64,000 nucleotides of DNA from Lunularia cruciata (Eukaryota > Streptophyta > Marchantiopsida > Lunulariales > Lunulariaceae): the NCBI GenBank assembly GCA_948567375.1, contig OX419759.1:44110593-44174592 (forward strand), read 5' to 3'. The stretch's first letter is position 1. Each line of letters starts with the position of its first letter. The notes below the pieces were generated by a model, which did no database searches, had not been told where the DNA came from, and saw only the letters and a list, made by a program, of their open reading frames with translations. Both the position numbers and the translations under genes were made by a program. Below are positions 16,193 to 52,445 of the stretch, piece by piece.

Positions 16193-17182
16193 TCATTGTT
16201 GACCAGAACTGAAATCCTCACCGTCCTCAAAGTAAGAGCCTTCCTGTAGCCACTCTGTATTTGTTTCGCCCCATGACCTTGGTGCAACTCCAAAGTTCGA
16301 ATGTATGAACGCTTCCAGACTGGGGAAAATGCGATTGCTGTCTAACAAAGGGTTCCACCACCCACTAACTATGCAGTAATTAATGTCATAAGGGGCGCGA
16401 TGGTGAGCGCCGTGCATCTTTCTGGGAATAAGAAGCCCACTCTCCTGTAGAGCTACTACTGCGGAAGGAAGCTGGCTTTTTTTCATGTGAGACCATGCAT
16501 GGAATTGCTGGCTCATTACAACAAATCCCAGGAACAGACCAAGAAACGTGTCGACTCCCGGGTTACCTGGGAGGGCGAAGAATGGAGTGAGAAAAATTGT
16601 AGCTGGACGCGCGATGGCGTGAATGTTATTCGCAAATTCTCTCTTCGTTATCGTCCATGGTCGCTTGTGGTGACCTTGAAAGGCGTCAATTTGAGACCCA
16701 ACCAACGGTGTCTTGGCGTCTCCATAGTTGTCCACTCCCCAGTGGTAAAATCCTGTTCCTAGATCTGACAGCAAATATGATGCAAACGCTCCAGAACAAA
16801 TGGCAACGATGTCCTCAAACGAATGGGCTGCCATTACCCCTTTTGTGATCATGGCAACTAAAGCAACGGCACCTGCACTTACCCAAAATCTATGTTCTAG
16901 CGTCGATTTTAAACTATCATCCGAAAGTCCCAATTCCATCGGGCGCTGACCTCTATCTTTCGTCTGACCTCCGGCTTTCTCCAGCACACGTGTTGGTGGT
17001 GTTTCGACTAACACGGCCCGACTGGGATTTCGACCATTTCTACTTAGTGCACGAGTGGAACTGAGCCCCCGAATCTTGAAGAAAACTTGCCGGCCTAGAA
17101 ATGAACCTCGGAGGAGATTGAATTTGGGTGCGACGAGCTTGTCAGCGCACAGCACACAGCTTGCGGCGGCGGTGACAGCCAT
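16193..17182 (-). CDS. FAD4: Plastid fatty-acid desaturase FAD4 family (TMEM189-like)
   Basis: Single-exon gene of 329 residues. Arabidopsis FAD4 (323 residues) introduces a trans double bond at carbon 3 of palmitate in chloroplast phosphatidylglycerol. Residues 1-60 are Ser/Arg/Ala-rich like a chloroplast transit peptide. The lipid-desaturase domain spans about 100-310. Visible family motifs: YHWGVDNYGD (146-155), AFQGHHKRPWT (167-177), FANNIHAIARP (183-193), QQFHAWSH (225-232) and HGAHHRAPYDINYCIVSGWW (257-276), supplying the metal-binding histidines. Hydrophobic stretches at 102-120 and 211-224 fit membrane spans. The frame stays open 67 codons upstream to 17383, but the Met at 17182 was chosen because it starts the transit-like sequence, has A at -3 and gives the family length. 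The gene appears intact. Confidence 0.92.
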   Translation of the reverse strand: MAVTAAASCVLCADKLVAPKFNLLRGSFLGRQVFFKIRGLSSTRALSRNGRNPSRAVLVETPPTRVLEKAGGQTKDRGQRPMELGLSDDSLKSTLEHRFWVSAGAVALVAMITKGVMAAHSFEDIVAICSGAFASYLLSDLGTGFYHWGVDNYGDAKTPLVGSQIDAFQGHHKRPWTITKREFANNIHAIARPATIFLTPFFALPGNPGVDTFLGLFLGFVVMSQQFHAWSHMKKSQLPSAVVALQESGLLIPRKMHGAHHRAPYDINYCIVSGWWNPLLDSNRIFPSLEAFIHSNFGVAPRSWGETNTEWLQEGSYFEDGEDFSSGQQ

Positions 17183-18115
17183 CTTGCAGTATTCAGTAGG
17201 CACAACAAGCTGAAGGGGATTGCGGCAACGCAAGATTCTACAGGTCTCTTCCTGAAGAAAGATATTCTCAGCTGCTCCAGATTGTAAAATCAAGGTACCC
17301 CAAAGACAAGTCTGTTGGTGCAAATCAACAGGCAGCCAACGAACCCCGTCAATTACAAGCTGCAGAACACTGCTGCTACCCAAGGAAGAGCAGGTTCAAG
17401 CACGTCGAAGAAATTCTACTGCTGCGAGAAAAATAACAACTACCCACCGGTTCATGAGAACCTGAGGCGGCTCAAGCTCAAACTTTGAGAGGCTCCCAGT
17501 TCAGAAGACCGGAGGTTGAGAATTGAGGACTAGAAAGAGCAATTCAACCTGCAATTCCTCTCATCCACAACTTACGATGAGAGTTTGAGAGTAGGAGATC
17601 TAGCAACGGAAGTACCGGTCTTTGAGTCTCAGCAAGAAATCTCAAAACTTCTGAGCCACAAGACTGATTTCCAAACTCCGTACACATACGTCCCTGACAT
17701 TTTAGCCACGTGGTTGCTCTCACGGCACCCAAACATTCCATGATAAGCTGCTTTCGTACCGGGAAACATGAATTCGTGTCGGCACACATCCAAATTGAGA
17801 GTTCCTTTACAAGTTATCGGGTTTCTATGGGGGCTGGTACTCAGAAATGCATAGTCTGGTGATGACCCACGTCTACTACCTCTCCGCCAATTAACTATTT
17901 CTGCGACGGTTCTTGACATTTTTCCTATCATCATTACCTTTCTGTGCGGAAGACAAAATCTCTCTCCCAGTGGTGTTGGTTAACGTTTTTCTTTTTTCTT
18001 TTCTTTTTAAATTATTTGATTATTCATAATAAATTTAAAAACATTTTAAACTACATATATTAAATTTTAGGTTTATTTTTACATTTTATATATAATATTA
18101 AATATATTTAAATTT
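17183..18115. other. Upstream region of FAD4
   Basis: Contains the upstream-open extension of the FAD4 frame (to 17383) and a minus-strand open frame at 17629-17934 (101 codons) that resembles no family I know. Both lie where a 5' leader and promoter of the minus-strand FAD4 would be. From about 17990 the DNA becomes very AT-rich up to the transposon end at 18116. No TATA box could be assigned with confidence. Confidence 0.4.
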
Positions 18116-18282: not shown

Positions 18283-18460
18283 GCGAAGATAAGTCTAAGT
18301 CAGAAACTGAATGTGATTAATTTAGTCAAAGCTTGGAAGTCCCATGTTGAAGTTGCTCTTCACTTCAGAGTGCGAGGATGAGTCTAAGTCAGAAACTGAA
18401 TGTGATTAATTTCGTCAAAGCTTGGAAGTCCCATGTTGAAGTTGCTCTTCACTTCAGAGT
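18283..18460 (+). repeat. 89-bp tandem duplication at the transposase start
   Basis: 18283-18371 and 18372-18460 are nearly identical adjacent copies, differing at only a few positions (for example GATAAG versus GATGAG and TTTAG versus TTTCG). The duplication repeats the first codons of the DNA-binding domain. Only the second copy continues in frame into the transposase. Confidence 0.9.
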
Positions 18461-20073
18461 GTCATGGCCTATGGTGAACAGCATCATGAAAAAATCTGAA
18501 CTAATCAAGACCGAGATCGAGAAGTCTGCAATCAATAGATCCAAAAAGAGCCTTAGGACATCTGGCTCAGAAACTCTCAAAAATATGTTGCATCAATGGC
18601 ATGTTCGATGTGAGATCGACTCACCTGATCTCAATGTCACGGGAGAGGTTCTTCAGGCCAAGGCTCTAGAATTTCAAAATAAAATACTGAGCAAATATGA
18701 GGGTGGCCTTACTCTCATGCTTAAGGAGTATTTTGTCTCCTTCAAGACATCAAATGGATGGCTTCAGAACTTTCTCTCTCGTAAAGGGACTACCAACAGG
18801 AGACGTTGCGATGAGCATAACTCGACAGACACAGCAACAGTTGGCAAGCGGCTTGCTGATATTCGCCAGCATTTGGAAAGCATACCATTGAAGGAAATTT
18901 GGAATATTGATGAAACCGCTCTCCAGCATCGCACCACGTCTTTACGATCATATTTGACCATTAAAAATGATGGTCGAGGAGTAAAGTGATGCAAAGATTG
19001 CATTACAGTCATCCCAATCGTGAGCGCAGCAAGTGAAAAACTAACCGTTCAGGTGATTGGGAAGTTGAAACAGCCTCACGCTCTTAAAAGCATAGACAAC
19101 AACAAAACATTCAACATTGTTTACGACGATCAGGCCAAGGCGTGGCAAGATGGATCTTCCATGATGCACCTCCTCCATAGAATCAATCAGGAAGCACTAA
19201 GAAGGCAAACACATTTCTACATTTTACTTACAATTGTAGCTCACACATCTTTGCAGCAAAAGTGTTGGACACAACAGGTTCCGCATAGACATCATTCACC
19301 TTTGAAGTGATTACGATCCTATTTTTCCCACCGAATGCGACGAGGGACTGCCAACCACTAGATCAAGGGATCATTCGCTCACTAAAGGCAGGGTATCACA
19401 AGGTGATGCTTTGCTCACTACTCAGTGAATACGAGCGGTGGCAGTGCTCATGTGATGAGATGCCCATGAGTTATTTTCCAATTCACCAACACACACATAT
19501 GCAAAATGTTCTTCATTGGCTTCAGGAGGCACACTATAATATTTCTGAAAATACCATCCGACTATGTTTCTTAAAGGCAAATGTTTCTTTGCTCCAGCTT
19601 TCAACGAAGACGACGATGTTGTTGATGATGTTGTTGTCGATCTAGTTAATCTGATGTCATCTGTTCAAATGCATGATGTCTTGGCAGACTCGCTTGGTAT
19701 TACGGAAGACGTGTCGGAATTGATCGACTTTGACAATGATGAACCCACAAGCAGTTCGGAAATTGATGAGACTGAGATCATTGAGAGTGTTCTGATCTCG
19801 TTTGGCGACCTGATATCGCCTGCTGATTCTGATGATGATGATGATGACATTGCGGATCTAGTCTCAATCGAGACTGCTCTTATAGGAGTCAAAGCCATGC
19901 GAAATTATCTATCCTATTCGGCACCTTCATCATTAAACTCATCTAAATTTGTTGTCAATAATGATCTGCATAAGGCTCTTTACCAACTCCAAAAGTGTAT
20001 TGCGAAGGACCAAAGCATCAACAAGTTGGAGAGTAAGAAGCAAGCTTCTATCAAGTCCTTTTTCCAGCTTTAG
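18372..20073 (+). pseudogene. Tigger/pogo transposase remnant
   Basis: The transposase would bind the terminal repeats and cut and paste the element in the nucleus. 18378-18989 encodes a helix-turn-helix (LSQKLNVINFVKAWKSH) and a CENP-B/Tc5-like second DNA-binding region. The DDE core starts at NIDETALQ (first Asp, near 18906). The second catalytic position, expected as D-N-x-S-S-H, reads YNCSSH near 19220-19240, so Asp is lost. The third region, FFPPNATRDCQPLDQGIIRS, lies at 19324-19383. An acidic C-terminus ends at 20073. A stop at 18987 and two frame changes break the gene. The N-terminus before the duplicated segment is missing. Confidence 0.85.
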
Positions 20074-29762: not shown

Positions 29763-32700
29763 AATTATTGTTGTAATACCAACTATCGAAGCATCCTTTG
29801 TAGTTGAAGGAGTTACCACAACTTCCATTGAAATTAGAGTTTGTGGGTGCAAGCATATTGTTAGCCTTGCCGGTTCTTTTCCTTTTCATGCTTTCTCATG
29901 ATTTGATGTTGTATTTAATATATTGTCTTTATTGAACAATGAGAAGAAAACCATCTTATAAGTCAAGAGGATAGCTCCACTTGTAGATGAGGTAAGTAAA
30001 CTCCCTGTACTTTTTGAAATTGAACCCCATTGCAATTCTCATATGGTACCCATATTATGATTTGATCTAATTGTTTACTTTCGTCAATCTTTTTTTTATC
30101 AAGTTAGGATTTTTATGTTCTATGCTTAGAGTAAATATATTACATTAACACAAATGTTATGTCTCATCCATCACCATGTATATTAGCTTATCTTTTGCAA
30201 TTTGATCAAATATCTAAAAACAAAAAAATGAATCAAATGTTTATGGAGAAAGTATATGCACCCAACTAACTTACTATGGAGAAAATATAGAGCTTTGAAG
30301 TAATTTCAAAATTTATAAAAGCCTTTCTTTTCATAATACATAAATAGTTGAAAATTACATACTAGATGAATAAATATTGAGCTAAGTTTTATTCTGTTCT
30401 TTGACAAATACAGATAATTGTATATTGATATATTCAGTGATCTGGAATAATTTACTGCAAATTTTATTCCTAAATTGCAAAGTACAAAAATAAAACTACT
30501 GCAAAATTTATTCCTAAATTTATAAAGAATTATCACCTCAATTTGTTCATAGGAATTTCACACTTCAAATTTATATATTTGGTTCTAATAAATGGGTGAG
30601 ATATTTTAATATTTTTGATTTAGTATACCTACATTATTAAAATAATATTGGGCAGTAATTTGGAACCATAATTATGTTGCACATTAACATATATTTACCT
30701 ACTTCTTTACCTATACATGTATAAATATAATAAAAAAGTTCTTCCAATAATTTTGATATTAGTGTTTTAATTTATTGATGTTATTCCTCACTCATAAAAA
30801 TATTACTAACTGGATATATAGTGAATTTCATATTTTATAATATTAGATGATAGAAAGTAAGCTCTAGAATTTATGAATTCAATAGAGTGATTTATTAGAT
30901 TGATTTGAGTACTTTTTTAATTATCTTTAGATGTTTTGATATTATCTGTAATAAATCAATTTAGTACTACTTAAGTAACAATAATGATAATTAATAGTTA
31001 AATCTTAATTTATGTATTAAATATAAAAATATTTGTTCTTGTATAATTTGAGTTTATTTTCATAATTAAATATTAAAAAAATTAATCTTAATTTGTATTT
31101 ATTACTTAAATGTATAAAATAAAATTCCTTGTATTGATAAAGTTTGTTTATATTACAATTTTAATACATACAAAGTATACAAATTAAATAATTATATGTG
31201 TTTAAATTCTATTTCACTTTATTATTTATGATTTTATAATTTGTGTAATCCAAACTTAATGTACTTGAAGGAAGAAATGAATATCTTAAGGATATCTTAG
31301 TACACTATGTATGAAAAGTAGGTATAATATAATCATCTCACCGAAATGGCAAAGGAGATCATAAAACTTGATGTTATTAGTTGCTATCTTTTTATCTTTT
31401 ATAGGAATTGAGTAATGAACCAAACTAGCAAGATACATTTGAAGTCTTTGATACCCAAATTCAATATACTAGACTATAGACTATACTAGTTTTGCTATTT
31501 TAGATCTTTATTATGTACACTATGTTATTTTTGAAAAGGCACTTAAAACTATCAAATATATTGTATCTAGTCCATAAGTGGTACTGTCAAAATAACCAAG
31601 AGGAACAAATCAACCTTCCAACAATTGCTGATTTGACCCTTCAGATTTATTATCACCTCCTTTAATAATGCAGAAATAGATCTCTTGAACTAGGAAAAAA
31701 TGTCCTTAGAGTGTAGTGTTCTTGATTAATTAGAAGGGAAGCACAAAAGACACAGAGAGAGAGAGAGAGATATATATATATATATAATTCATTAAAATAA
31801 AGAATTAATTATATGATATAAAATTGAACTAGGTTTTGCTCAAACTTCAAGAAGATTATTAGTATTATTGTATATGATTGAGGGTTGATATAGGTTAATC
31901 CCACATGCAAATTACAAATTTTATCCACTTCAAAGATATAAGGATCATATGAAAGCTATTCATCTTAAGCTTCAAAGTCACATTAGAAGTTAGAAGCAAT
32001 TTATAGTTTATTTTGATACTACATTCAATTAAGAATAGTGTTTTCTATTGTCTAAACTTTGATAATTGTTTATAACTATTAGATTATTTATTATAATGCA
32101 TACTAAATCCATGTAATTATTTGTTTGTATAGTTTGCTAGAATCATCTAAAGTTATTATGCAATTGCATTTTGGGGAGAACAAGCTAGCTTTGGGTTTGG
32201 GTGGCATTTAACCCCTAACTACAACTCATCCACTAATTTTTCAACATCAGTTGGTTGGGACCTCCACTTAGTTTCACCCAAGCTTCATAGTTGTCATTGA
32301 TAGATCACTTATGTTTGGGTCCACAAGCATTGATAATCGCACCAAGAAGCCTTGTGCTTGTTATGGCTCCAAAAGGTTCCCTTAGACAAGCCATTGTCTA
32401 TAAGTTACCATCTCATTCTTCAACCAGCATGCGGTCAAAGATTCAATTCTCCTCCCACTACATGGGAACTTACAATTTCATGTTCTATTCCACTCCTTGA
32501 TAGGGTTATTTTCACCATTCCCTCATAGTACTTAGTAACTTTACTTATTTTGAAAATTAGTATCTCTTATGTGTAAGAATTTCACAAGTGCATAAAGAAA
32601 GGATTATGAAGTACTGACTGTGGCACACACAGTTTCTCAATGTGCAAGTTGATTCTACTTTTCTAAATTTTGTAACAATAAAGAGACTAACCATGCTCAT

Positions 32701-39162: not shown

Positions 39163-40697
39163 GGATCTATAGTTGCAAGAGTTGATACAAGGAATGCAAG
39201 GGATGTTGAACAAGTTTGGAGAAATCAAGATGACCATGGAGGAATTGCAGAATCAAATATGTACTATCAAGAATGATCAAGTAGTGCAAAAAGGGAAGTT
39301 GTCTCAACAACTAGCACCAGCAATTGAAGTACTTGGAGAGTTATGCATGCCAATGACACCAATTCCAATCAACAACCAAGCCACATTGTTACTACAAATG
39401 AAAAAGACGTGCAACATTGAGCCTTACAAGGGATAAAATTCAATGGGAGTAGTGGAAAATTGGATTTCAAGAATGAATCAATACCTTTGATTGTTCATAA
39501 ATAAGATCATTGATCACTCTGTATGTGTATTTGCTCGTGGGTACTTGATTGATAAAGCCCTCACATGGTATGACACTTGGGAATGATCATTGTTGGTGGA
39601 AGGAAGAGAGGTCACTTAGACAGCCATGCTAGAAGGGCTGCTTAAGAAATTCTAATATGTGGATTCTATGAAAATGGCCTGAACCAGACTTTGGGAGTTG
39701 AAGTAGAAGAATAACATATAAGAGTACATGGAGGCATTTTTGGATCTACAGGTTGCAATAAACAATATGAGTCCAGCCGAAGCTCTTGACAATTTCAAGA
39801 GAGGATTAAAAGAGTGGATTCACCAAGAGGTAATGGTGCAAAATCCTCATACTATTTTTTAAGCCATTGCATGCATCCAAAGTATAGCAAGGGCTCTTGG
39901 CAGACGTGAAGCAATAACACCAATGAAAAACTATTGGGCCGAGACATACCATTTGCTGTACCAGTTCCTATGGAATTGGGCAACATTCTATTTTAGATAA
40001 AGGAGCAAGAACTCTCCAAGGAGAATGGGGACGGGTTGAAGAAAGGAGAGAAGGAGTCCCACAAGGAGAAAGAGCTTGAGCAGAACAACAACAATATTAC
40101 AATTGTGGCTAAATTAGGTACATAGTTATGAATTGTTGTGCTCATCATCTTAGAGGCCCTCGGTATCCATACAAGAAACCTCTGAACCACATAGAGAGGC
40201 AAATTGAAGAGGAAGATATGGGAACCGCATTGAAAAGTGAATATAATGTACCTTGTGGCCTTATTGGCTTGGTGAAGAAGAGTAAAAGTGAGGGGAAGAA
40301 GAGGACAAGTGTGCAAAGAAAGAGGAAGATAACTACAGAATTAATTGTTGTAAATGGAGTGCTAGAAGGCAATCTAGTGAGAGTGTTGATAGATCTTGGG
40401 GTAATAAAGAATTTCTTGTCTCACTCTGTTGCAATAAAGTTGGAGATGGAACTAGAGAAGGATGAGAAGGACAAAGTAGAGTTACCTAATGGTTAGATAG
40501 AGAGGATTCAGTAGTTACCTAGAAAGGTAATACTCTCTGTAGTAGAGTATTGAGAAGCAATCGAGTAGTGAGTGATACAACTAGCCTGTTATGATGCGAT
40601 CTTAGGTATGTTGTGGATGGAGCACTACAACCCGACGGTGGATTGGAGAAAGAAAGTAATGAAAACTAGTCAATGGAAGATCTTTGGGAGTAAAGGA
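39163..40697 (+). pseudogene. Element F gag and protease remnant
   Basis: A Gln/Met-rich coiled-coil N-terminus (39173-39436) is followed by capsid-like sequence (LTWYDTWE, WELK, FKRGLKEWIHQEV). A decayed knuckle near 40095-40136 still ends GxIRYIVMNC but has lost the first Cys and the His through G-to-A and C-to-T changes. The protease region starts near 40340, and the active site LIDLGVIKNF replaces LIDSGASxNF. DAILGMLWMEHYNPTVDW at 40590-40650 is the usual end of a gypsy protease. Element G interrupts at 40697. Confidence 0.75.
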
Positions 40698-41136
40698 TAT
40701 CACACCATTTGTAGTGTCGCATCTAGATACTCACACTGGAGTTATAGTGATAGTAGTTAGAGTAATTTCAGCAGTTTCTCAAAGACTACTTTCCGACGAT
40801 CAGATTTTGTGTTTGGGGTACTGACTTCACGGTGGGGCACACCATCACTTTGCACCGTTTGCACTGTCAAGTGTACCATCAATGGGACCGTTAGGGTTCA
40901 GACCTAGCTCGAGTCCAAGGAGTATACTTTCAAAGTGCAGCTCCAAAGAGCTCTTTTATTTGATGTTGAGCCTTCGAGTTCCTGGCTATGGTGGACAGAG
41001 GTTGGCAAGCATCACCTGGATTCTCTATGCTTGAGTGGGTGTGGCTTGACTGTAATCAATACCTAGTTGTTGGTAGTTTATAGAGTGAGAGATCAAGTAT
41101 TGATCTTAGTTGAGTTGAGTTGAGAGTGGTAAACAA
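40698..41136 (+). repeat. Element G 5' terminal repeat (segment m)
   Basis: 439 bp matching 50687-51126 over its full length with scattered substitutions. Starts TATCACACC where the 3' copy has TGTCATGCC. Ends GTGGTAAACAA, after which the two copies differ. Contains the phrase GAGTTGAGTTGAGTTGAGAG and a 5'-AGCCTTCGAGTTCCTGG block. Confidence 0.85.
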
Positions 41137-42472
41137 TCTAATTACATCAAAGAAGTGAAGTTAGGGGGAAATTGGGTGTAGGAACTTTGAGTGTTGGTGG
41201 TATCTCCAAGCTTGGTGGATCATTGGTAGCTCGATTCAAGTTCAATGTTTCCCTAGTGTGCAGAAGCTTGTTCAATTGATGTAGATTTGGCAGTTAGGCA
41301 GACGGTGTGCGGAAGCGCTGGCCAAATTTTGAGCAAAGAAGGAGCAAAGAAGGAGCAAATTTTGAGCAGTGGTTGTGATTTTGAACTCAAGAGGTGAAGG
41401 CAGGACCAATTTGCTACGAGTTGGGCTCAGAAAGTCAAATTGAAGGTGGAGTTGGGAAGCTATTCTCATGAATTTGTGATTTGGAGAAACTCGTGTTGTC
41501 AATTTGGCTCAAGTGGAAAGTTAACGGGGGATTTGGCGGACAACCAACTTTAGGGTTTATGTCAAATTTTGGCCAGATTTGGAGGACTTTTGCTAGTTTG
41601 GAGAAGTTTTACCAATTTTGGAGGAGGTTCAAAGTGGCAAGAAGAAAGGCCTCATTTGGCTGAATTTCTGCATTTTGAGGCTTTGAGGCATAGGGTTGTG
41701 GGCTATGAGAGGCTATGAAGGCCTAGAAAGGCTAGCAAGCCAGCTTGTTGGCGTGAGGCTAGCTAGTTTAGAGTAGATCTTGGTCATTGGTTGGCAAAAT
41801 CTGCCCATCATGCTAGATTGTGCGTAACAGAGTTTGACCCCTAGACTGGTGACCTAGCCAATTGGTCTACCCTCACTTGTTGTCCTAGTGACTGTGCCAC
41901 TGTTATCTATTCACATGTAGCTTTGGCTAGGAGAGGCAGTTTGATCCCATTCTTGGTGATCCTGGTAGCTTAGGACTTAGATACGAATTGCTTTTATGTC
42001 AAATGCCAAATGGTGGCAGAGTCAGTCCCGTGTTGTGTTATGAGATGGAGAGTTTTTGTTTAGATTTCTTGTGATTGGATCCCCTCCATTCTCTACTTCC
42101 TGTTTGTGCACCATGTTTGTGTGAGGTGCCCTGACTTTTGAGCGTTGGTGCTTTGGTGTGCTCTCGATAGTGAGGCTGGAGTGATGACCAGTCAGACTAC
42201 CTTTGTTTCTCTCCGGTGAGGCAAGAAGTGATGACCTACAGACCGTGAGAGTGCCTGTTGTGATGGCAAGTTACAGGTTGCCTTTCTCCTAGTATAGTTA
42301 TCTTGGTTAGAGTTACATTAGTAGGTGGTGCTTAGTTGGTATTAGCACTTGGTGGTGTTTGCACTCGGTGGTGTTGGCACTTGGCGGGGTAATTGCGGTT
42401 ACAATTTGCGGTTGCAGTTGTGGTTACTTTGTCACGACGGAGTTTGTTGGAGATTCCAAAGGAGTTAACCCT
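41137..42472 (+). other. Element G leader, no gene
   Basis: About 1.3 kb rich in G and T with no convincing reading frame. TGGTGGCAGAGT at 42011-42022 resembles an initiator-Met primer-binding site (9 of 12). If real, the 5' LTR would run to about 42008, and the 3' LTR would have lost that part. A low-complexity GGTG-rich stretch at 42330-42425 precedes the gag start. Confidence 0.4.
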
Positions 42473-45030
42473 ATGGTACGCAATGAAATTACTTAGAGTG
42501 GTGCTCGATATCAGCTTGTATCTCGAGTCCCAGTGAGGAAGGAGATTGACTCTGAGTTGGAGTTCAACATAGGAGCTGATTCAGTTGAGAGTGCACTTGG
42601 TGTGTCCGCACTGTTGTTGTGGGACATGAATGAGATTTATGGGGCCTCTAAAGGCCCTAGGCGCTACTCTGGTACAATGGGTACCATTGAGTTGGATGAC
42701 TTCATTCAGGAGTTCAATAGTTGGTGTGATCTGCATTAGATGTGGAACTCAACTTTGTTTACACCCTTCATGGCATAAAAGAGGTTGTTTCAACATCTAG
42801 AGGGTCCGCCAATGGATGACTACCATGAGTTCAGGAGAGCTCATTTGGAAGAGATTGAGTTATAGAGACAATATTGGTCTCCACACTATGTCTCCATCAC
42901 TTTAGGCTCGGTGGCTAGGAGTAGATTGGCTATACCTATGAGTTCTAGCTTGAGTAGTGTTGGTGGAGCTAGTGGAGGTGCACTAGCTAGAGATAGTGCT
43001 ACTACAGGTGGAGGTACCGCTACAGGAGGTGGTGTGGTACCAAGGTTTAACCCCATGGTGGAGTTCTTCTTGTGTTTGAGGCAAAACTACCATGGAGTGC
43101 GGACTGACAAGCTGAGGAGCTTGCAAGAGTTCCAACAGAAGGCTAGAGAGAGCCTACGGGAGGCATACACTCACATGAGGTGGCTGATCAGTTTCACTCA
43201 GGGAGTTACTGAGGCCTAGGCAGTCTAGTTTTGGTATGGGATATTGGACAAGGAGTTGTGATGTAGAGTTCATGATGCTATGTTGTTATAGGCTACTTCA
43301 CCTACTTTGGCAGTGGTCTTTGGTTTGGCTGAGCGTATTGAGCTCAACATAGTGGAGAGAGTGGTGACATCTAGATTTGGTAGGGAGACCTCATCCACAA
43401 CTGTGACTTCTTCTAGAGTGCAGCAGAGTGCACCACACCCAATTGGTTTTTGAGGACATGGTGGACAGCCCAGATCCTATGGAGCGAGTGGAGGGCCTAG
43501 TGGAGCTAGACCCTTACCTTCATTTTTGGGTCAACAACAACCAATGAGTGGTAGTGTTGCTTGTTGGACTTGTGGTGGACCTCACCATAGGAGAGAGTGT
43601 ACTTAGGGCAATAAACTGTAACACCCATTTGTGCATGTGTGTGGTATTGTGATATTTAGCTTGGTATTACAAGTACTTAAGAGATATTATTTATATAGAG
43701 ATAAAGAATGGTTCTATATTAGTCATGGTTAGCTAAAGTTATTCATAGCTAAGATAGAGTGGACCTTAATTTAGAGGAAGTAGAAAAGATGAGCACCACG
43801 ATTTTGGATTTTAGTGTGTTGACTTGGTATTATCGATAGGTGTTTGGCTTTGAGGAAAGAGTTGAGAACTCTTGGGCCCGCAAGCCTTTTTGTTTTGGAT
43901 TCTTCTTTAGTCCAAGGATAGCCCATGTGAAGGAATCCTTGACTTAGTGGTTAGGTCAAGATAAGATCACATGCTTAGGAGAATATGCCCATGTGAATGG
44001 ATATTCCTTTTTACTTTTTGACTTTACTTGACTTTTAGTCTAGTAACTTGAGTTACTACGGTAATTAGTAACTTTGGTATGTAAATATTTCACAAGTATA
44101 TAAACAAGGGGTGAGGAGGTACTCATCATCCTTTCATTTGCAACTATCTCTCTCTCATTGAGTTCTCTAGTGAGCAATGTCTTGAGTCTTGGAGTGTTAG
44201 CCTTGGAGGAGTATGATGGAGTTGGGGTTCCTTGCCTTCTTAGTCCATGGTGCGCTACCATAATAGCCATCAGAGGTTCATCCTGAGTGAGAGACAGGCC
44301 GGCTCACATGACCTGATACCTTTGGTGCATCATAGCCAGCATAGAGGCAGTGTGAGCACTGCCACATATTTGGTCATACTAGTGATCGGTGTTTTGACCT
44401 ACACCTTGAGTTACGGAGTGGTAGGGCTGCTATTGCAGGTAGTAGAGGAGATCCGAATCATGGAGGACAAGGTGGTAGAGGTGGTGGTAGAGGATCTATA
44501 CCTAGTAGGGGTGCAATACCTGCCCTTACTTCTGACACAACTATGTCTACTCGGATTGAGCAGTTGGAGTAGAGATTGGCTAGTATGGCTATTGCTCAGA
44601 GGAGATCAGATTCGGGTGTTGAGGCTTCCACCTCATATGCTGGTGATAGAGATGCTTTGGATTTCATGTGCGGAGCAACATAGGTGGATGCATCTGCAGC
44701 AATGACTAGGAGTGCAGTACATGCTCCAGAGCCTAAAGGAGCATCAGTGGAGTTGGACCCACAAAGAGGAGAGGTTGGGAGACAAGTTAGACTTCCTCAG
44801 TATTTCACATTATCTGAGGCATTGCAGACAACATCCATGGTTCCTAGACGTCCCAGTGTAGGTGTGGTAGGTGGTGATGGAGTGCATGATGGACTACTTG
44901 CTAGTCAGCCACCTACTACTACACAAACTAAGTCTAGCATGATATTGGGGGCGGCTCAACTGATTATGCGGCATCCTTTGCTTTTGGCCAATGATATGTT
45001 TCCATTAGGAGTTGACCTAGCCCTAGTATT
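42473..45030 (+). pseudogene. Element G gag with two zinc knuckles
   Basis: ATG at 42473 opens a frame broken by a few stops (CAG or CAA to TAG or TAA, TGG to TAG). The capsid-like part spans 42480-43400: IELDDFIQEFNSW, LFQHLEGPP and ESLREAYTHMRWL are recognisable. A Gly/Ala/Thr-rich linker lies at 42930-43040. The first knuckle, CWTCGGPHHRREC, is at 43562-43600. A solo LTR then interrupts (43617 to about 44250). The second knuckle, CEHCHIFGHTSDRC (exact CX2CX4HX4C), is at 44351-44392, followed by a Gly/Arg-rich stretch. Two knuckles of different type in one gag are a notable feature. Confidence 0.75.
43617..44250 (+). repeat. Solo LTR nested in element G gag
   Basis: Starts TGTAACACCC, a common Ty3/gypsy LTR start, immediately after the first zinc knuckle. 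A TATA-like TATATAAACA lies near 44098. Gag resumes before the second knuckle at 44351. The right end is uncertain (a CCA at 44240 or 44255), and no clear target duplication was found, though TAAAC before and TAATA after may be a decayed pair. Confidence 0.65.
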
Positions 45031-46000
45031 CTAGTTGGCTACCACGCTATGTAAGAGTAGGGATGGTGCAGTTCCTACTACTAGAGCAGAGGTGGTTGGT
45101 AGTGGAGTTGACTTGGTTGAGGAGCATGGGATCGGTTCAACGACCAGTGGTTTATGGCAGGCAACAGCGGCTAGACTGGAGGAGTTGCCAACTAGACCGG
45201 CCTTTGAAAGAGCGCGGTTTACACCTGGTGTTGTCTTATTGGATAACCACATGGGGATTTTCCGTTTGGTGGGACCTTTAGGGAAGGTCTATACACCATA
45301 GAGAGTCTTGTTAGACTTTGGTGCGTAGCTCCTTATGTTGGGGAAGGTTGTCATTGTCGGTTTGGAGTTACAAAAGACCAATGTGGAGAGGTGTCCATTT
45401 TAGATCCAAACATCTCTAAGTGGTGGTTCGACACACTACATCACACATGGGGAGCTTGTTGTCCAGGTTCAACTTGGTCATCCAACTCATAGCTCGGTGG
45501 TGAGAGCTCAGGCTATTGCGACAATAGCTGAGTCACATGATGTGCTAGTTGGAGGAGCAATGTTATACCCCATGGGTTTCAGCATTGACTATTGGGAGGA
45601 GACAACCTCTTATAGACCTGGTTGGCAGTCTGGTGAGGGACGGGTATGTTGCCTACCAATATGCTTCAATAATGGTAGTCTTGGCTCACTACAGTCTGGG
45701 ACCATGGCAACATCAATTTTAGCTTTCAATGGTGCAATTACTTGGCCTAGTGACTTGTTGGAGTGGAACGCCCATGCAAAGGATACTCCAGTACTAGAGG
45801 AGATCACTTGGCTTTGGAGTACAAGTGAGATTGTTCCATCCACCTTGGATGTTCCATTGTGGAGTTCAGAGGAGGCGTTGTAGCAGCATGCATATCAGTT
45901 GGTGCAGCAGGCTTGGAGTGGAGCCTTTGTACCATCAGAAGATGAGTGTGAGGATGAGCATCCAGAGATGATTGCTTTGACACCTCTGGATACCACACTC
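45031..46000 (+). pseudogene. Element G protease and linker
   Basis: The retropepsin-like active site lies at 45305-45325 in VLLDFGA: the expected Asp-Ser-Gly has Ser replaced by Phe (C-to-T). LMLGKVVIVGLELQ follows, as in plant gypsy proteases. The region to 45883 is open (128 codons) but unlike other proteases. Its WEETTSYRPGWQSGEGRV and WSSEEAL phrases I cannot assign. This part leads directly into the methyltransferase. Confidence 0.65.
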
Positions 46001-46018
46001 ATTGCTTGGTAGTATCCA

Positions 46019-46980
46019 GTAGAGGAGATATGTCTATTGGAGTTGTTTGATGGGATTAGCATCGGACTAGCTATGGTGTTATAGGCGGGTATACGAGTAC
46101 AGAGGTACTTATATGTAGAGAGAGATGAGACTGCTAGGTGAGTCTCTCTATATCATGTGGCACACTTGGCCTATCAATATCCGGAGTTATTACCAATGTC
46201 AACAGTCAAAGGTTACCAGAAGGCCCTACCAACAGACATTTCCTTATTGGGGGCGCATGATCTAGAGAGACATGGGCCTATTCACTTGGTGATTTTTGGA
46301 TGGCCATGTCAGGGACATACACGTGCTGGTAGAGGATTGGGTCTTCAGAACCCTTGTTCTGGTGTGTTTTGGGAGATTTTACAAATACTACAACATCTTC
46401 AGGTTCATCAATCTATTTCTCCAGCTTACCTTTTGGAGAACTTTCCTTTGATGGCTATTCTCACACCAGAGTGGTGGTGAATACACATCAGGTCCATTCT
46501 TGGATGGGACCTACTACATTGTTAGATGCAGTCAGAGTGGGATCACGGGCTCATCATCTTTGTCTTTGGTGGACAAACCTCTTACCCATAGAGGTTTTAC
46601 AGCATGCTTATGATGGGATTCACGACTTGACCACATCCTTGTTGATGACATCTTGGATGTTGAGCGTCAGTCTCAGGTAGTGGTAGTGGTCGATAGGTCA
46701 CCTATGGTAGTGATTAACCTAGTGAGACAGCCTAGAGCTGCATTCCCCACACTCATGAGTTTCCCAGGCTCTCATGCTTTTTGAGAGGTAGGACCTGGAC
46801 TTGTTTGGGACTCATAGTTACAGTAGTTGGTGGAGCCCAACGTTGATGAGAGAGAGCAAGCGACGGGTTTTCACACCATTACTACCGCTATTCTAGCAAT
46901 GTCAGGCATCCAGGCGTCAGGTGTTAGGTTAGGCTATGGACCTAAAATTTTTGACATGGATTGTGAGCCTTGGCTTGGTA
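46019..46980 (+). pseudogene. DNMT3-like cytosine-5 DNA methyltransferase domain in element G
   Basis: C5 methyltransferases move a methyl group from S-adenosylmethionine to cytosine in DNA. Motifs appear in family order: I, LELFDGISIGLA (46037-46072, AdoMet binding); GIRVQRYLYVERDE (II region); IV, GPIHLVIFGWPCQG, with the catalytic Cys codon at 46307-46309; the loop TRAGRGLGLQNP; VI, YLLENFP, with the Glu at 46436-46438; VIII, SRAHHLCLWWTNLLP (46543-46587); and X, RRQVLG-stop-AMDLKFLTW (46912-46959). Motif I and its GIxVxRY continuation and motif X resemble DNMT3 more than MET1, CMT or DRM. PCQ instead of PCN in motif IV is unlike animal DNMT3. Stops (two TAG/TGA near 46082 and 46139), a frame change near 46442 and others later inactivate it. 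It lies between protease and RT. Confidence 0.85.
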
Positions 46981-47429
46981 GAGCAGCGTAGGATGTGCTT
47001 GATTGGCATCACCACTTGACACTTGTGAGCCCTATGCCTATCAAGACTATTCAGGCACATGTTGGGGGTGATGGACCGAGTGGACATGGTATTCTTGGGA
47101 CACATCCAGTAGCTACTAGGGAGAGTGGTCTACTTGGGGTCTATCCAGGTGAGCATGGGCTACTTGGATTACACCCTTGGTCCACTTGGGATGCAACTAG
47201 AGGACGTGTGGAGCTTGCAGCCAAAGTGGAGGGAGTTTTTCACACAAAGTTTGGGACTTTTAGTGGTCGGGAGCATGACACTATTGCTCCCAAGGGCCCA
47301 GTGTAGCAACCAGTCAGTACATCTTCCACTCCTACTATAGTTACAGAGGATACTTGGGAGCCAAATCTTGGACCCAAGCTTATTGGAGAGGAAAGACTGA
47401 AGGTTTGGAGGTTCTTGAAGAGCCACACG

Positions 47430-48355
47430 AGTTGTTTTGCCTTTAGTATGAAGGATTTGGGTGCTCTGAAGGGACCTGGTATACAGATTGTGCTGACTAG
47501 CAATACACTAGTTTTCCAACGTCCTTATTGTTATAGTGACATGGAGAGGACATTGATTCAGAGCCAAAGTAGTGACTTTTTTAGGCTAGTTTGGTGGAGA
47601 TTTCACATAGAGAGTATGCATCAGTGATAGTGATGCCAGCCAAGAAAGATATGCATGGCAACTACACAGATAGGCGGATGTGTGGAGATTACCATCCTAT
47701 CAACCAACATACCAGGGCTGATTGGTATGCCATGCCTACACTGGAGGAGATTTTTGATGCAATTGGGTATGCAAAGGTCTTTAGTACTTTGGATCTTCGA
47801 GCAAGATATCATCAATTGCTAATCAAGGAGGAGGATAAGTCCAAGACAACATTTTGGGCTATTGATCCTCACGGCAAGGATGTGTTATATCAGTGGAGGT
47901 TCTTACCATTTGGGTTGAAGAACTCTCCTACTGAGTTCCAGAGGGTCATGGATAGGATCCTAGTTGGATTGGATTTAGCTCGGTGCTATATTGATGACAT
48001 TTTGGTTTATAGCACTACTGTGGAGGAGCATGAGAGACAGTTGTTGGAGGTATTTTGAGAGGTTGAGATCTCATGGACTCAAATTACATCTTGGGAAGTG
48101 TAGGTTCTTCCAAGAGCAGGTTGAGTATTTGGGTCACACTATCTATCTCGGAGGACTTGGTGTTCAGCAGACCAAGGTGGAGGCTATTGCACTTATTCCT
48201 TGGCCTATAGATGTGAGTAGAGTGCAAGCATTTCTTGGGTTGGCAAACTTCTATCGCTGCTATGTTAGAGGATTTAGTGTCATTGCCAAGGCCTTGACAA
48301 AGCTGACCAAGCTTACACATGAGTGGTGTTGGGGAGATGAGCAAAGGTGAGCTTT
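47430..48355 (+). pseudogene. Element G reverse transcriptase
   Basis: The N-terminal part (QIVLTSNTLVFQRPYCYSDM) starts near 47485. After one frame change near 47595 the palm region is open from 47591 to 48058: RMCGDYHPINQHT, FSTLDLRARYHQL, FGLKNSPTEFQRVM and the intact catalytic YIDD at 47987-47998. After a one-base shift near 48055 the thumb and connection continue (HLGKCRFFQEQVEYLGHTI, FLGLANFYRCYVRGF). A repeated GLLGxHP-type phrase lies upstream near 47080-47180, between methyltransferase and RT. Confidence 0.88.
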
Positions 48356-48980
48356 TGTAGAGCTCAAGGAGAGGTTGACATCTGCTCCTATTTTGAGGAG
48401 ACCGATTAGAGGACAACCATTTCAGGTTCATACTGATTGGTGTATGTTGGGGTTTAGAGCAGTGCTCACCCAGAATCATGATGAGGGGAAGAAGTTTGTG
48501 GTGGCCTATGCTAGTCACTCTAACAATTCAATAGAGGTGAAGTATAGTTCATATTAGGGAGAGTGCTTGGCAACAGTTTGGGTTGTAGCACATTTCCGAT
48601 GTTACCTATTTGGTAACCCCTTCACTCTCATCATTGATCATCAGCCACTGAAGTGGTTGATGGAGTCTGACAAGCTTTCAGGGAAGCTTGCACGATGGGC
48701 TCTGATTTTACAAGAGTATGATTTCATGGTTGTTCATAGACCTAGAGTGGTGAACCGTGATGCAGATGGGTTGAGTAGAAACCCATGTCCCAACCAACAG
48801 GATCAGACCAGAGCACATTGGCATGGTGAGATAGATGAGGAGATGGTGCCAAGTAGGCATGCATCTACTTTTCTATGTTTATTTTTTGAGGCTTTGGTGG
48901 TATCTCTCTCAACACATACAAGAGGAGTTATTGAGGTCATAGATCCAGAGAGTGAAGATATTGGTATAGTTCAGTGAGAT
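48356..48980 (+). pseudogene. Element G RNase H
   Basis: Follows RT in frame after stop codons replacing single residues. Catalytic Asp in VHTDWCMLGFRAVL near 48430, Glu in YSSY-stop-GECLATVW near 48560 and Asp in IDHQPLKWL near 48640. The tail phrase RDADGLSRNP closes the domain near 48780. 48800-48980 is a linker to integrase. It degrades the RNA strand during reverse transcription. Confidence 0.82.
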
Positions 48981-50269
48981 ATTCATGATGATGTCTTAGT
49001 GATGGACTATCTTTGCACTAGTGTTGTGGGTGGCACAATTGGGGCCGAGGAGAGAGACCATGTTCTTCAGTGAGGCCGACGGTTCAGATTGGAGGGTAGA
49101 CACCTTTTTTGTGTATGGGAGGATGGTAGAGTGCGAGTAGTACTACTTCCATCTTAGAGACCATAGTTGGTCTGTCATGCTCATGAGGAGCTAGGACAAT
49201 TTGGAGTAAACCGTACATATAGCTTACTCTAGAGTCACTATTGGTGGCACGGTATGCAGACCAAGGTATAGCAGTTTGTTGCCAAATGTGTGGTTTGTGA
49301 CCGAGTTAGAGCATCATTCAATGCTCTTACACCACAGTTACACCCATTACCTATCATGGGATTGGGTTATCATTGGAGTTTGGACTTTGCTGGACCTTTA
49401 CCGCTGACTGTGAGACATCATCGGTATGTTTTGGTGATGGTGGAGCACTTCTCCAAGTGGATTGAGTTGGTGGCACTTCCTGACAAGTCTAGTGAATAAC
49501 AACTTACTCATTCCTGGATTGAGTTCTTGGGGCACTAGCTGAGGTTTTGAATGATCAGGGTAAAAAGTTCTTGGGAGAGTTTCAGGTCTTATGTGACAAG
49601 GCTTTGATTGATCACCGTACTACCTTCCGAGATCACTCTGAGGCAGATGGCTTAGCAAAGAGAGTGGTTTAGACAGTGAAGAGAGGATTGCAAAATTATG
49701 GTTTGTAGAGAGGCCACTTGGGAGATTGGGATCTCCAGTTACCTTGGTTGGCCATGGGCTATTGGTTCAGCTGGCAAGCCTCCTTAGCATCCTTCCCCCC
49801 GTACTTTCTACTCTATGGACAAGATCCAGATATACCTGTAGCCATTTGTCAAGATGCTATTGTACTTTAAGACTTGGATGACCCCGATGTATGGATGAGC
49901 ACATGTTCTTAGCGGGCAGAGATCTTTCGGAGAGTGATGCCAATGGCCTTTGAGAACTTGGTGATTGCTCAACATAGAGATACTTTACGCTATGCTACCA
50001 TTCAAGGAGGAGGTTATAGACCCTCGATCTGTCAATTTCATCCAAGAGACTATGTATATCTACAACAGACAACACCAACAACACTTGATGTTTTGACAAG
50101 CCGCACTATCTTGGGAGTGCATGAGGTTTTGCCATCTAGAGTCCTTGTGTTAGAAGGACGTGATGGTGTTTTTTGGGAGGATCATGTTTGCAATTGTGCG
50201 CCATGCCACCTCCCAAACATTGATGGTACTATAGACCCAAGTTTGGCACTTGTACATACAGGCTTGAGG
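48981..50269 (+). pseudogene. Element G integrase
   Basis: The zinc-binding N-terminus reads CHAHEELGQFG (49168-49200) and KCVVCD near 49285-49300. First catalytic Asp in SLDFAGP (codon 49383-49385). The second, in NDQGK, is at 49553-49555. The third catalytic residue, Glu in the family, is Lys (AAG, 49658-49660, in ADGLAKRVVQ), a G-to-A change that would abolish integration. The long C-terminal part is open from 49934: MAFENLVIAQHRDTLRYATI, then a barrel-like region with FHPRDYVYLQQ, EVLPSRVLVLEG and NCAPCHLPNIDG. It ends directly in a PHD finger, not a chromodomain. Confidence 0.88.
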
Positions 50270-50410
50270 TGTATGTTATGTGGCTCTTCTGGTGGAGCTG
50301 CTACTATGTTAGTGTGTGATAGTTGTTTAAGAGGATGGCATATGGCATGTATGACTCCTCCCCTCACAATGGTTCCTCAGGGACAGTGGTTATGTCCTAG
50401 ATGTACTTGA
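50270..50410 (+). pseudogene. PHD finger at the integrase C-terminus of element G
   Basis: PHD fingers bind histone H3 tails. The eight zinc ligands are all present with exact C4HC3 spacing: Cx2C-x11-Cx2C-x4-H-x2-C-x14-Cx2C. Key phrases are MLVCDSCLRGWHMAC and QWLCPRC, including the Trp two residues before the seventh ligand. It is in frame with the integrase tail from 49934 and ends at a stop at 50408-50410, so the domain itself is undamaged. It occupies the position of the chromodomain in elements A and F. The Asp after the third Cys suits contact with the H3 N-terminus; the preferred methylation state cannot be told by eye. Confidence 0.93.
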
Positions 50411-50568
50411 ACTATAGGTAGTTCATTCTTTATATGGTATAGATTGCAGATAGGCAACTAACGATAGGGCTCCATAGCACTCGACATCCTGATCTTTGCC
50501 CATTAGAGGGTATACCATATACTTAGAGTAGATGGCTATCCGGAGTTAGAGGGACCTAACCACCAGCT

Positions 50569-50579
50569 AGGGGGGCGAT
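50569..50579 (+). other. Polypurine tract candidate of element G
   Basis: AGGGGGGCGAT-type tract about 160 bp after the PHD stop, directly before repeat r1. It is the expected site of plus-strand priming just inside a 3' LTR, yet the terminal-repeat segment m starts only at 50687. Confidence 0.5.
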
Positions 50580-50585
50580 TGTGTC

Positions 50586-51239
50586 ACTTTTGAGTCTATG
50601 TATGACTTATGTGTGAGTTGTGCTTCTATAGTGTATGATGTTGACAGCGATGTATGTTGTGCAGAAATGTATATACGCACAACAACTGTCATGCCATTTG
50701 TAGTGTTGCATCTAGATGCTCGGACACTGGAGTTGCAGTGATAGTAATTAGAGTTATTTCAGCAGTTTCTTAGAGACTACTTTCAAACGATCAGATTTTG
50801 TGTTTGGAGTACTGACTTCACGGTAAGGCCCACCGTCACTTTGCACCGTTGCACTGTCAAGTGTGCCATCAACGGGACCGTTAGAGATAAGATCTAGCTC
50901 AAGTCCAAGGGGTAAACTTTTGAAGTGCAGCTCCAGAGAGCTCACTTCTCTGATGTTGAGCCTTCGAGTTCCTGGTTATGGTGGATAGAGGCCGGTGAGC
51001 GTCACCTGGATTCTCTATGCTTGAGTGGGTGTGGTTTGATTGTAATCAATGCCTAGTTGTTGGCACTTTATAGAGTGATAGATCAAGTACTGATTTGAGT
51101 TGAGTTGAGTTGAGAGTGGTAAACAAGCTGATAATTATGGCATTTTGAGTCTATGTATGACTTATGTGTGAGTTGTGCTTCTATAGTGTATGATGTTGAT
51201 AGCAATGTATGTTGTGTAGCGATGTATATATGCACGACA
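50586..51239 (+). repeat. Element G 3' terminal repeats, order r1-m-r2
   Basis: r1 (50586-50684) and r2 (51141-51239) are 99-bp direct copies starting near TTTTGAGTCTATGTATGAC and ending GCAC(A/G)ACA. Between them lies segment m (50687-51126), the partner of 40698-41136. The span 50687-51239 has LTR-like ends TGTC...GACA and abuts the AGGA target duplication. r1 lacks a counterpart at the 5' end, and the 5' copy of m lacks the r part. Exact LTR limits are therefore unsettled. Confidence 0.75.
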
Positions 51240-51243
51240 AGGA

Positions 51244-51712
51244 AGATTACAAAGGCAAGAGTTGCCTATGTATATCATAAGGACCACATCTATTGGTGAG
51301 ATAGATAGATGTTTCATAGGTTTTATAAGAGAAGTCTAGAGTGCCAAACACAATGGACAAATTCTTGAGAAATTGAAAGATGTGGTCAATGAGTTCCAAG
51401 ATATCTTTTTGGATGAATTACCCATAGGTTTACTACCAAAAAGGAGAGTAGATCATAAAATTGAGATAAATTGTAGGAAGACTCCTCCTTGTAAGGCCCC
51501 ATATTGACTATCACCTCATGAATTGGAGGAGTGTAAGGCTCAAATTGAGGATATGTTGCAGAAAGAGTTTATCCAACCCAACATAACACCATATGGGGCT
51601 CTTGTATTGTTTGTGAAGAAGGATTGAACAATGTGCATATGCATTGACTACCAAGGACTGAATCAACAAATGGTGAGGAACAAATATACATCACCTTAGA
51701 TGGATGACTTAC
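51244..51712 (+). pseudogene. Element F pol: connection to the first part of RT
   Basis: Resumes the element F frame after element G: RLQRQELPMYI, then VVNEFQDIFLDELPIGLLP and CKAPY (51484 region), and FIQPNITPYGALVLFVKKD with CICIDYQGLNQQM near 51640-51680. A CGA/TGG-to-TGA and a CGA-to-TAG interrupt it. It stops at the inverted LTR inserted at 51713. Confidence 0.8.
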
Positions 51713-52445
51713 TGTAATACTCTGAGGACAAGAGAAGAGAGAAAACACAGACTTCACACTCAAAAATTTGATGCCCCAAAGGAGCACCTTCTCTTTATTA
51801 TATAGACAAAGAGGATCTCCTCCAAGGAAGCTCCACCATAGGATTAGGCACACAGATATGTGACATGTCAGCAAGCTCCACCCTTGGCTTACTTACTTGG
51901 ATGGGTGACATGTCGGTCTAGGTCCTATCTAGCTTGTCAAACAAGCTTTGACCAGAGGGAATCTTTTATGGAATCTTCTTGTAGGAGCCTCAGAATCACG
52001 TAAGGTACCGTTGGAAAGCTCTCGACAAGAAAAACCAGGGGGAAGGGAAGGCCAGCCTTCCCTCTATTGGGAGGGGGACTTCACACATTTTTGAGGCCTA
52101 ATTCATCCATTTAGGCCTCCAAAATTGCCTTCAAAGATCAGACATATTTTGATTCCTACTCTATTAGTAGAAGTACCCTTTTGGTGATACCTCTTTCTGA
52201 TCTGTTTAGTCCATCATGTGTACCATCCTTCCAAATGTTACCAAACCAATTCTCACCTTTAAATCATATGTCTAGCTATTGGTTCTAAGGTTCTCAAGTC
52301 CATTTTGGTTTTTGCCTTATTAGTAGAAGTACTCTTTTGGTGATACTTCTATCTAATCTATTTTGACCATCATGTATAACATCATTCTAGATGTTACCAA
52401 ACCAAATTTCACATCTAGATCATATGGCTAGCTCTTGGTATTACA
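51713..52445 (-). repeat. Solo family-D LTR inserted in RT of element F
   Basis: 733 bp, minus orientation (forward view starts TGTAATACTCTGAGG, ends TGGTATTACA). Same family as F's own 3' LTR but longer, because the 54926 copy lacks part of the left half. It contains an internal duplication of about 180 bp (GTAGAAGTAC(C/T)C(T/-)TTTGGTGATAC near 52167 and 52325). RT coding resumes directly after it with [15 protein letters not shown]. Flanking bases are only partly alike, so the target duplication has decayed. Confidence 0.88.

Follow-up and report, generated by a model that had tools for sequence, protein, structure and literature searches.

The window analysed here, 64,000 nucleotides of the Lunularia cruciata genome, contains a Ty3/gypsy retrotransposon spanning 40698-51239, whose parts follow the order Gag, protease (PR), DNA methyltransferase (DNMT), reverse transcriptase (RT), RNase H, integrase and PHD finger:

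40694-40697, unstranded: target-site duplication AGGA, left copy (4 bp)
40698-41142, plus strand: terminal repeat A1, the 5' end of the element, a direct repeat of A2 that differs from it at 52 of 444 positions
42011-42025, plus strand: putative PBS-like site TGGTGGCAGAGTCAG, present in 8 of 8 copies scanned
42626-43600, plus strand: first part of Gag, decayed, placed by similarity to Marchantia protein P0020
43617-44345 (bounds approximate), plus strand: later insertion splitting Gag, a gap in the P0020 alignment
44351-44750 (end approximate), plus strand: zinc-knuckle part of Gag, with the knuckle recognized by eye and collinear with P0020
45238-45890 (approximate), plus strand: aspartic protease region, placed by the relatives' motif LLDSGA
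46013-46995, plus strand: DNMT3-type C5-methyltransferase domain, decayed, in four frame pieces, with the catalytic Cys codon at 46307-46309 (PF00145 and alignments of relatives)
47304-47306, plus strand: stop codon UAG that closes the Gag-PR-DNMT frame; the next six bases, CAACCA, fit CARYYA
47448-48350, plus strand: reverse transcriptase, decayed (PF00078)
48351-48740, plus strand: RNase H (PF17917)
49152-50250 (end approximate), plus strand: integrase, H2C2 finger and rve core (PF17921, PF00665)
50270-50404, plus strand: PHD finger at the integrase C terminus (PF00628, E 4e-11)
50569-50575, plus strand: putative polypurine tract, AGGGGGG, just before B1
50578-50684, plus strand: repeat B1, a direct repeat of B2
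50685-50686, plus strand: 2-bp spacer, AC in the window, between the CA ending B1 and the TG starting A2
50687-51132, plus strand: repeat A2, a direct repeat of A1
51134-51239, plus strand: repeat B2, the 3' end of the element, a direct repeat of B1
51240-51243, unstranded: target-site duplication AGGA, right copy (4 bp)

Pfam matches place RT and RNase H before the integrase, which is the Ty3/gypsy order. Gag and protease gave no Pfam match in the window or in P0020 and were located by motif reading and collinearity with P0020; zf-CCHC was matched in the Closterium protein P0034. The insertion of about 730 bp within Gag begins TGTAACACCC, lacks a counterpart in P0020 and is perhaps a solo LTR. 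The initial annotation had described a DNMT3-like methyltransferase between the protease and RT of a Ty3/gypsy element in a land plant, and this was confirmed, with the domain at 46013-46995. The PHD finger after the integrase and the split terminal repeats are added here.

Comparison with intact relatives divides the methyltransferase domain into pieces at 46013-46453, 46453-46623, 46635-46886 and 46903-46995, and because it carries three frame changes and six in-frame stops the window copy is dead. In the PF00145 search that had been proposed for the region, the longest open piece (46142-46477) gave a match at E 1.6e-4 and 21.7 bits, just under the cut-off of 22. The catalytic Cys lies where it had been read, encoded by TGT at 46307-46309. 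Among the motifs that had been called, I, IV and VI are intact, whereas motif VIII is broken (RAHHLC against AHRxR in relatives) and motif X is interrupted by a stop (LG*AMDL). The DNMT pieces align with eight liverwort proteins at 58-65% identity, and a chance origin is excluded by the collinearity of the element with Marchantia and Calypogeia proteins. When used alone as a query, the 112-aa piece retrieved no relatives, as the length rule of the search probably excludes polyproteins.

The motifs run in the canonical order I, IV, VI, VIII, X; they lack the DRM-type rearrangement, with VI-X before I-V. A profile built from eight domains, window pieces included, was compared to the sequences of solved structures and found 57 at E 0.001, the best 29 of which are DNMT3A, 3B or 3C (E 1.8e-22 to 1.3e-16). 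These were followed at 1e-9 to 2e-9 by a tRNA(C38) methyltransferase and 4onj, which we take to be tobacco DRM, and no chain named DNMT1 or CMT occurs among the 57. Judged by sequence, DNMT3 is a closer match to the window domain than are DNMT1, CMT, DNMT2 or the bacterial enzymes. The retrotransposon-borne enzymes (retro-DNMTs) share the type of catalytic domain with plant and animal DNMT3 and plant DRM, and the canonical motif order with DNMT3, but differ from them in forming a separate clade and in motif IV, which is mostly GWPCQG as opposed to GFPCQD in host DNMT3 and GSPCND in DNMT3A.

The methyltransferase is a family trait in the Lunularia genome, present in many copies. Across 565.8 Mb, at least 123 PF00145 matches were scored from 2161 candidates; a few of these matches do not belong to the element, such as two DNMT3-like host genes (L005 and L008), a DRM-like host gene with rearranged motifs (L006) and one further place (c1). 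At 40 of 40 further places chosen by their DNMT, the domain lies upstream of RT, with a gap of 562 bp in 33, and is open over nearly its full length in only five. As copies chosen by DNMT cannot reveal its absence, a second sample was based on RT, for which at least 150 places were scored (77-79% identical to the Calypogeia RT, the list ending at E 1.1e-98). Twenty of these, hand-picked at rough steps through the 150 and away from places already fetched, all carried the domain at the expected distance, with a stop-free piece in 13. The concern that other family members might join protease directly to RT, with the methyltransferase only a later insertion in this copy, is therefore not borne out. 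Bursts of Ty3/Gypsy elements are part of the description given for a 580-Mb L. cruciata assembly (PMC9985172).

Gag, protease and DNMT share one frame in the predicted protein P0020 and, when stops are not counted, in copies c3 and c7. The suggestion that this frame might stay open from protease through methyltransferase to RT failed, since all 26 copies with DNMT and RT in one frame have a stop in the spacer between them. At a fixed offset before RT, 36 of 40 copies carry UAG and one UAA, while L047, L051 and L070 have no stop there. The six bases after the stop fit CARYYA in all 37 stop-bearing copies of the 40, and the window reads UAG CAACCA; we assume UAG-CARYYA to be the leaky-stop context of tobacco mosaic virus type. 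Extra conservation of this context relative to its surroundings was not found, as 15% of windows had as few changes. Among relatives, P0006, P0028 and P0034 hold DNMT and RT in one frame.

The element ends were examined in ten fetched PF00145 places, nine of which are element copies; c1 was dropped because it has no match to element proteins, and the incomplete copies c5 and c8 were kept in the counts. Direct repeats A1/A2 and B1/B2, together with the AGGA sequences flanking 40698-51239, give the arrangement A-coding-B-A-B. In place of two matching full-length LTRs, the window and seven of the nine copies have A1 alone at the 5' end and B1-A2-B2 at the 3' end; c8 has lost B2 and part of A2, and in c5 A1 is absent from the fetched stretch and B2 is partial. 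No match to B was found in the 5' stretch of any of the nine. When the 691-bp B-A-B module served as the query, all 40 scored places, the window's included, matched it over 665 bases or more, out of 9913 first-look candidates. The B1-A2 junction consists of CA, two bases and TG in the window and six of eight copies, with TA for CA in c3 and c7. Perfect 4-bp target duplications were present in all seven readable cases (window, c2, c4, c6, c7, c9 and c10; ends were readable in six of the nine fetched copies and unreadable in c3, c5 and c8), and the element has the DDE-type integration with a short target duplication.

The element is nested in another gypsy-like element in the same orientation (40399-40697 and 51244-51900), and joining the flanks at the AGGA site restores the reading frame of that element, with one frame across the junction. 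Readings of the B-A-B end as a truncated or tandem LTR were rejected, as the duplications lie at the start of A1 and the end of B2, and the restored frame of the empty site also speaks against them. Separate inheritance of A1 and A2 was likewise rejected where the tree resolves: the same-copy pair fell together in six of nine cases, with starred support for the window, c2 and c7 and weaker support for c3, c6 and c9, and the tree did not resolve c4, c8 and c10. In the window, c2-c4 and c6-c10, the PBS-like site lies ~0.9 kb downstream of A1 and the purine run just before B1. Such a placement is at odds with ordinary LTR priming if A1 and B2 form the ends of the element.

A PHD signature was found in all eight copies scanned (c5 was left out of the nine), one of which has an internal stop. 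Among relatives, a PHD finger follows the integrase in P0007, P0009, P0015, P0017, P0025 and P0028, PF00628 has no match in P0006, and none of the Marchantia or Calypogeia proteins inspected extends as far as the PHD position. The solved chains nearest the window PHD finger (best 60 of 85) include CHD4, MLL3 (KMT2C), KMT2D, PHF12, DPF3, KDM5 and KAT6A, and several of the PHD fingers of these proteins read unmodified H3 tails. A histone-reader-type module at the integrase C terminus is shared with the chromoviruses, Ty3/gypsy elements that carry a chromodomain there, whereas the Lunularia element has a PHD finger together with a methyltransferase; no chromodomain (PF00385) was found at E 1 in three frames of 49700-50421, and by that mark it is not a chromovirus.

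Selection was assessed in single-frame copies only (30 of 40 for DNMT, 34 of 40 for RT). Variants present in at least five copies had fewer amino-acid changes than singletons, with nonsynonymous to synonymous counts (N/S) of 11/21 against 112/41 for DNMT (p 4.4e-5) and 5/16 against 64/34 for RT (p 5.6e-4); variants in two to four copies were no different from the singletons (DNMT p 0.28, RT p 0.63). Median pairwise dN/dS was 0.45 for DNMT and 0.26 for RT. Together, these patterns indicate that DNMT is constrained in transposing lineages, less so than RT, and decays after insertion. Nine stops in DNMT were shared by two to four copies and two in RT by at least five, so recurrent mutation or the copying of broken elements is in play. 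In the 32 of 39 copies used to estimate decay, C-to-T changes per site per copy reached 0.0605 at CG, 0.0431 at CHG and 0.0064 at CHH, with 0.0026 for A/T transitions. This pattern resembles plant-type silencing and suggests that the copies are methylated like ordinary silenced elements; given such strong CG and CHG decay, carrying a methyltransferase does not keep methylation off them.

We interpret the window copy as a dead member of an old, abundant streptophyte Ty3/gypsy lineage in which a DNMT3 made at the Gag level would methylate the cDNA and a PHD finger would guide integration, and assign this reading a probability of about 0.5. ORF1 would encode Gag-protease-DNMT3 and ORF2 RT-RNase H-integrase-PHD, the latter made by readthrough of the leaky UAG, and the amounts of methyltransferase made and packaged would match those of Gag and exceed those of RT. 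Once the RNA has been reverse transcribed, the enzyme may methylate the double-stranded cDNA of the element within the particle or close to it. The PHD finger carried by the integrase may guide the complex to chromatin that bears a particular H3 tail. As a built-in copy of the joined ends, the B1-spacer-A2 junction could restore both termini during copying. The roles put forward in the initial annotation, namely cDNA methylation, CpG masking, copy-number control and evasion of host sensing, are likewise hypothetical. A more specific proposal, which we consider possible but unlikely, is that a land-plant lineage descended from elements of streptophyte algae forms a particle that methylates, in which the leaky-stop DNMT3 marks the cDNA before PHD-guided integration. 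If this were true, new copies would enter the genome already marked.

Alternatively, the enzyme may act on host chromatin or integrated copies, not on cDNA, resulting in self-limited copy number or local silencing around new inserts, a role that is possible but unlikely in our view. The heavy CG and CHG decay of the copies is consistent with such a role, as is the chromatin contact suggested by the PHD finger, and a host benefit through slower transposition has been discussed in the text of an earlier study of retrotransposon methyltransferases (PMC5890265). However, CHG decay would be expected from host enzymes alone, and with at least 150 RT places scored, any restraint of copy number is weak at best.

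Another possibility is that selection retains the domain for RNA methylation or for a role in structure or nucleic-acid binding, and not for DNA methylation. Two relatives, P0003 and P0013, have ECQ for PCQ in motif IV, although with the catalytic Cys kept, AHRxR is retained in only 21 of 30 readable Lunularia copies, and the DNMTs of SymbioLINE elements are suspected, according to the same study, to act on RNA (PMC5890265). Against this, GWPCQG is kept in 29 of the 30 readable copies and all five tested motifs in 17, and we consider this alternative improbable.

That a host DNMT3 was captured separately within liverworts, one of two origins considered in the initial annotation, was weighed against the other, an older and wider lineage, using RT and DNMT trees of relatives (159 protein matches, of which the best 120 were examined). 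Marchantia polymorpha has Gag-protease-DNMT in the predicted protein P0020 and protease-DNMT-RT in P0002, and Calypogeia fissa has separate proteins for the DNMT part (P0021) and for RT to integrase (P0004), whose adjacency was not seen; all were already in public databases under hypothetical or unnamed entries. In Closterium, parts of the domain precede RT, with P0026 starting after motif IV and the predicted P0034 protein lacking that motif. P0027, which belongs to the retro-DNMT clade too, has a second layout, with the domain between RNase H and integrase. A quick RT tree was built from 52 rows, all of them matches of the protein search (P0008 and P0034 fill less than half of the columns), and in it the window grouped in a clade of 22 (SH-aLRT 99) that includes all 10 other DNMT-bearing rows and all five PHD-only rows. 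A DNMT tree of the relatives grouped the window, Marchantia and Calypogeia (100/99), and a wider one that added DNMT3 and DRM enzymes of the host, human DNMT3A and three enzymes from viral contigs joined the retro-DNMTs from liverworts, Closterium and unnamed sources in one clade (100/99), apart from the host DNMT3s.

The RT tree and the DNMT tree of the relatives both join P0006 to P0008, and the Closterium pair to each other, and RT and DNMT identities correlate with r 0.87 over 54 non-independent pairs, DNMT being lower by 13 points on average. The two trees disagree on P0028, P0013, P0027 and the order inside liverworts, which would favour separate capture, as would the two DNMT3-like genes of the host. 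In the DNMT tree P0028 is next to the liverworts (95/94), the window pairs with Marchantia (85/84) and P0013 joins P0027, a pairing flagged as long branches meeting; in the RT tree P0003 and P0013 are nearer than P0028 (84), and Calypogeia groups with Marchantia apart from the window (93). One RT clade and one DNMT clade apart from host DNMT3s nevertheless look like one old lineage, though the trees differ in places, and they favour the wider lineage over a separate capture, which we consider very improbable. As nearest to the retro-DNMT clade, neither human DNMT3A nor plant DNMT3 was favoured (AU p 0.065 and 0.076). Four methyltransferase loci on viral contigs were set aside as distant (29-43% identity). 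The possibility that a methyltransferase fragment inserted by chance into a single copy, or that the motifs were misread, would agree with the broken window copy and its Pfam score just below cut-off but is refuted by the domain preceding RT in 20 of 20 RT-chosen copies, as in 40 of 40 DNMT-chosen ones.

The Lunularia element has its closest described counterpart in KnitGypsy-Dnmt3 of Klebsormidium nitens, reported by de Mendoza et al. in 2018 (PMC5890265) and compared here by its published description. As described there, this LTR element of the Gypsy group has repeats in a DIRS-like order and a polyprotein that contains a Dnmt3-type domain, non-rearranged and under purifying selection (PMC5890265). 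The Lunularia element likewise is a gypsy element with a Dnmt3-type, non-rearranged domain and A-coding-B-A-B repeats. It differs in that its domain closes the Gag-protease frame, whereas that of KnitGypsy-Dnmt3 is placed in the Pol ORF, in having a PHD finger, a word absent from the main text of that paper (PMC5890265), and in its land-plant host with at least 150 RT places. No Klebsormidium-named match was among the 120 listed.

SymbioDIRS-Dnmt3 and SymbioLINE-Dnmt of Symbiodinium are, by the same account, also many-copy retrotransposons with a cytosine methyltransferase (PMC5890265). They belong to other retrotransposon orders, and SymbioDIRS uses a tyrosine recombinase, as opposed to the DDE-type integrase and 4-bp duplications found here. 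The Lunularia element is not a DIRS element, as the scanned pieces gave no Pfam match to a tyrosine recombinase, and integrase (PF17921, PF00665) and target duplications are present. In yeast, SymbioDIRS-Dnmt3 domains are reported to perform de novo CG methylation, and the Klebsormidium domain had no activity, a result its authors call inconclusive (PMC5890265).

These findings extend mobile DNA armed with methylation chemistry to land plants and not algae alone, with the liverwort family as a many-copy bryophyte counter-example in a host group that has genetics and in which Marchantia carries relatives. Why an element silenced by host methylation keeps a methyltransferase becomes testable, and a PHD finger is added in the same element. 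Retro-DNMTs should also be borne in mind when DNMT genes are counted in liverworts. A literature search, whose scope took in few subscription journals and no preprints, found no publication on methyltransferase-bearing liverwort elements.

Elsewhere in the window, a FAD4-like gene (16193-17395, minus strand) is 76% identical to its Marchantia and 72% to its Riccia fluitans counterpart, and in its tree the window pairs with Marchantia (93/72), the two being nested in a clade of Marchantia and Riccia (100/97). The ORF at 18351-18986 resembles a transposase and carries a DNA-binding domain of the Tc5 type (PF03221), and a fragment at 32181-32321 (minus strand) matches bacterial-type LSU rRNA and is perhaps organelle DNA moved to the nucleus. 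Repeats spaced by 93 bp occupy 4654-5719, where long open frames encode many repeated peptides.
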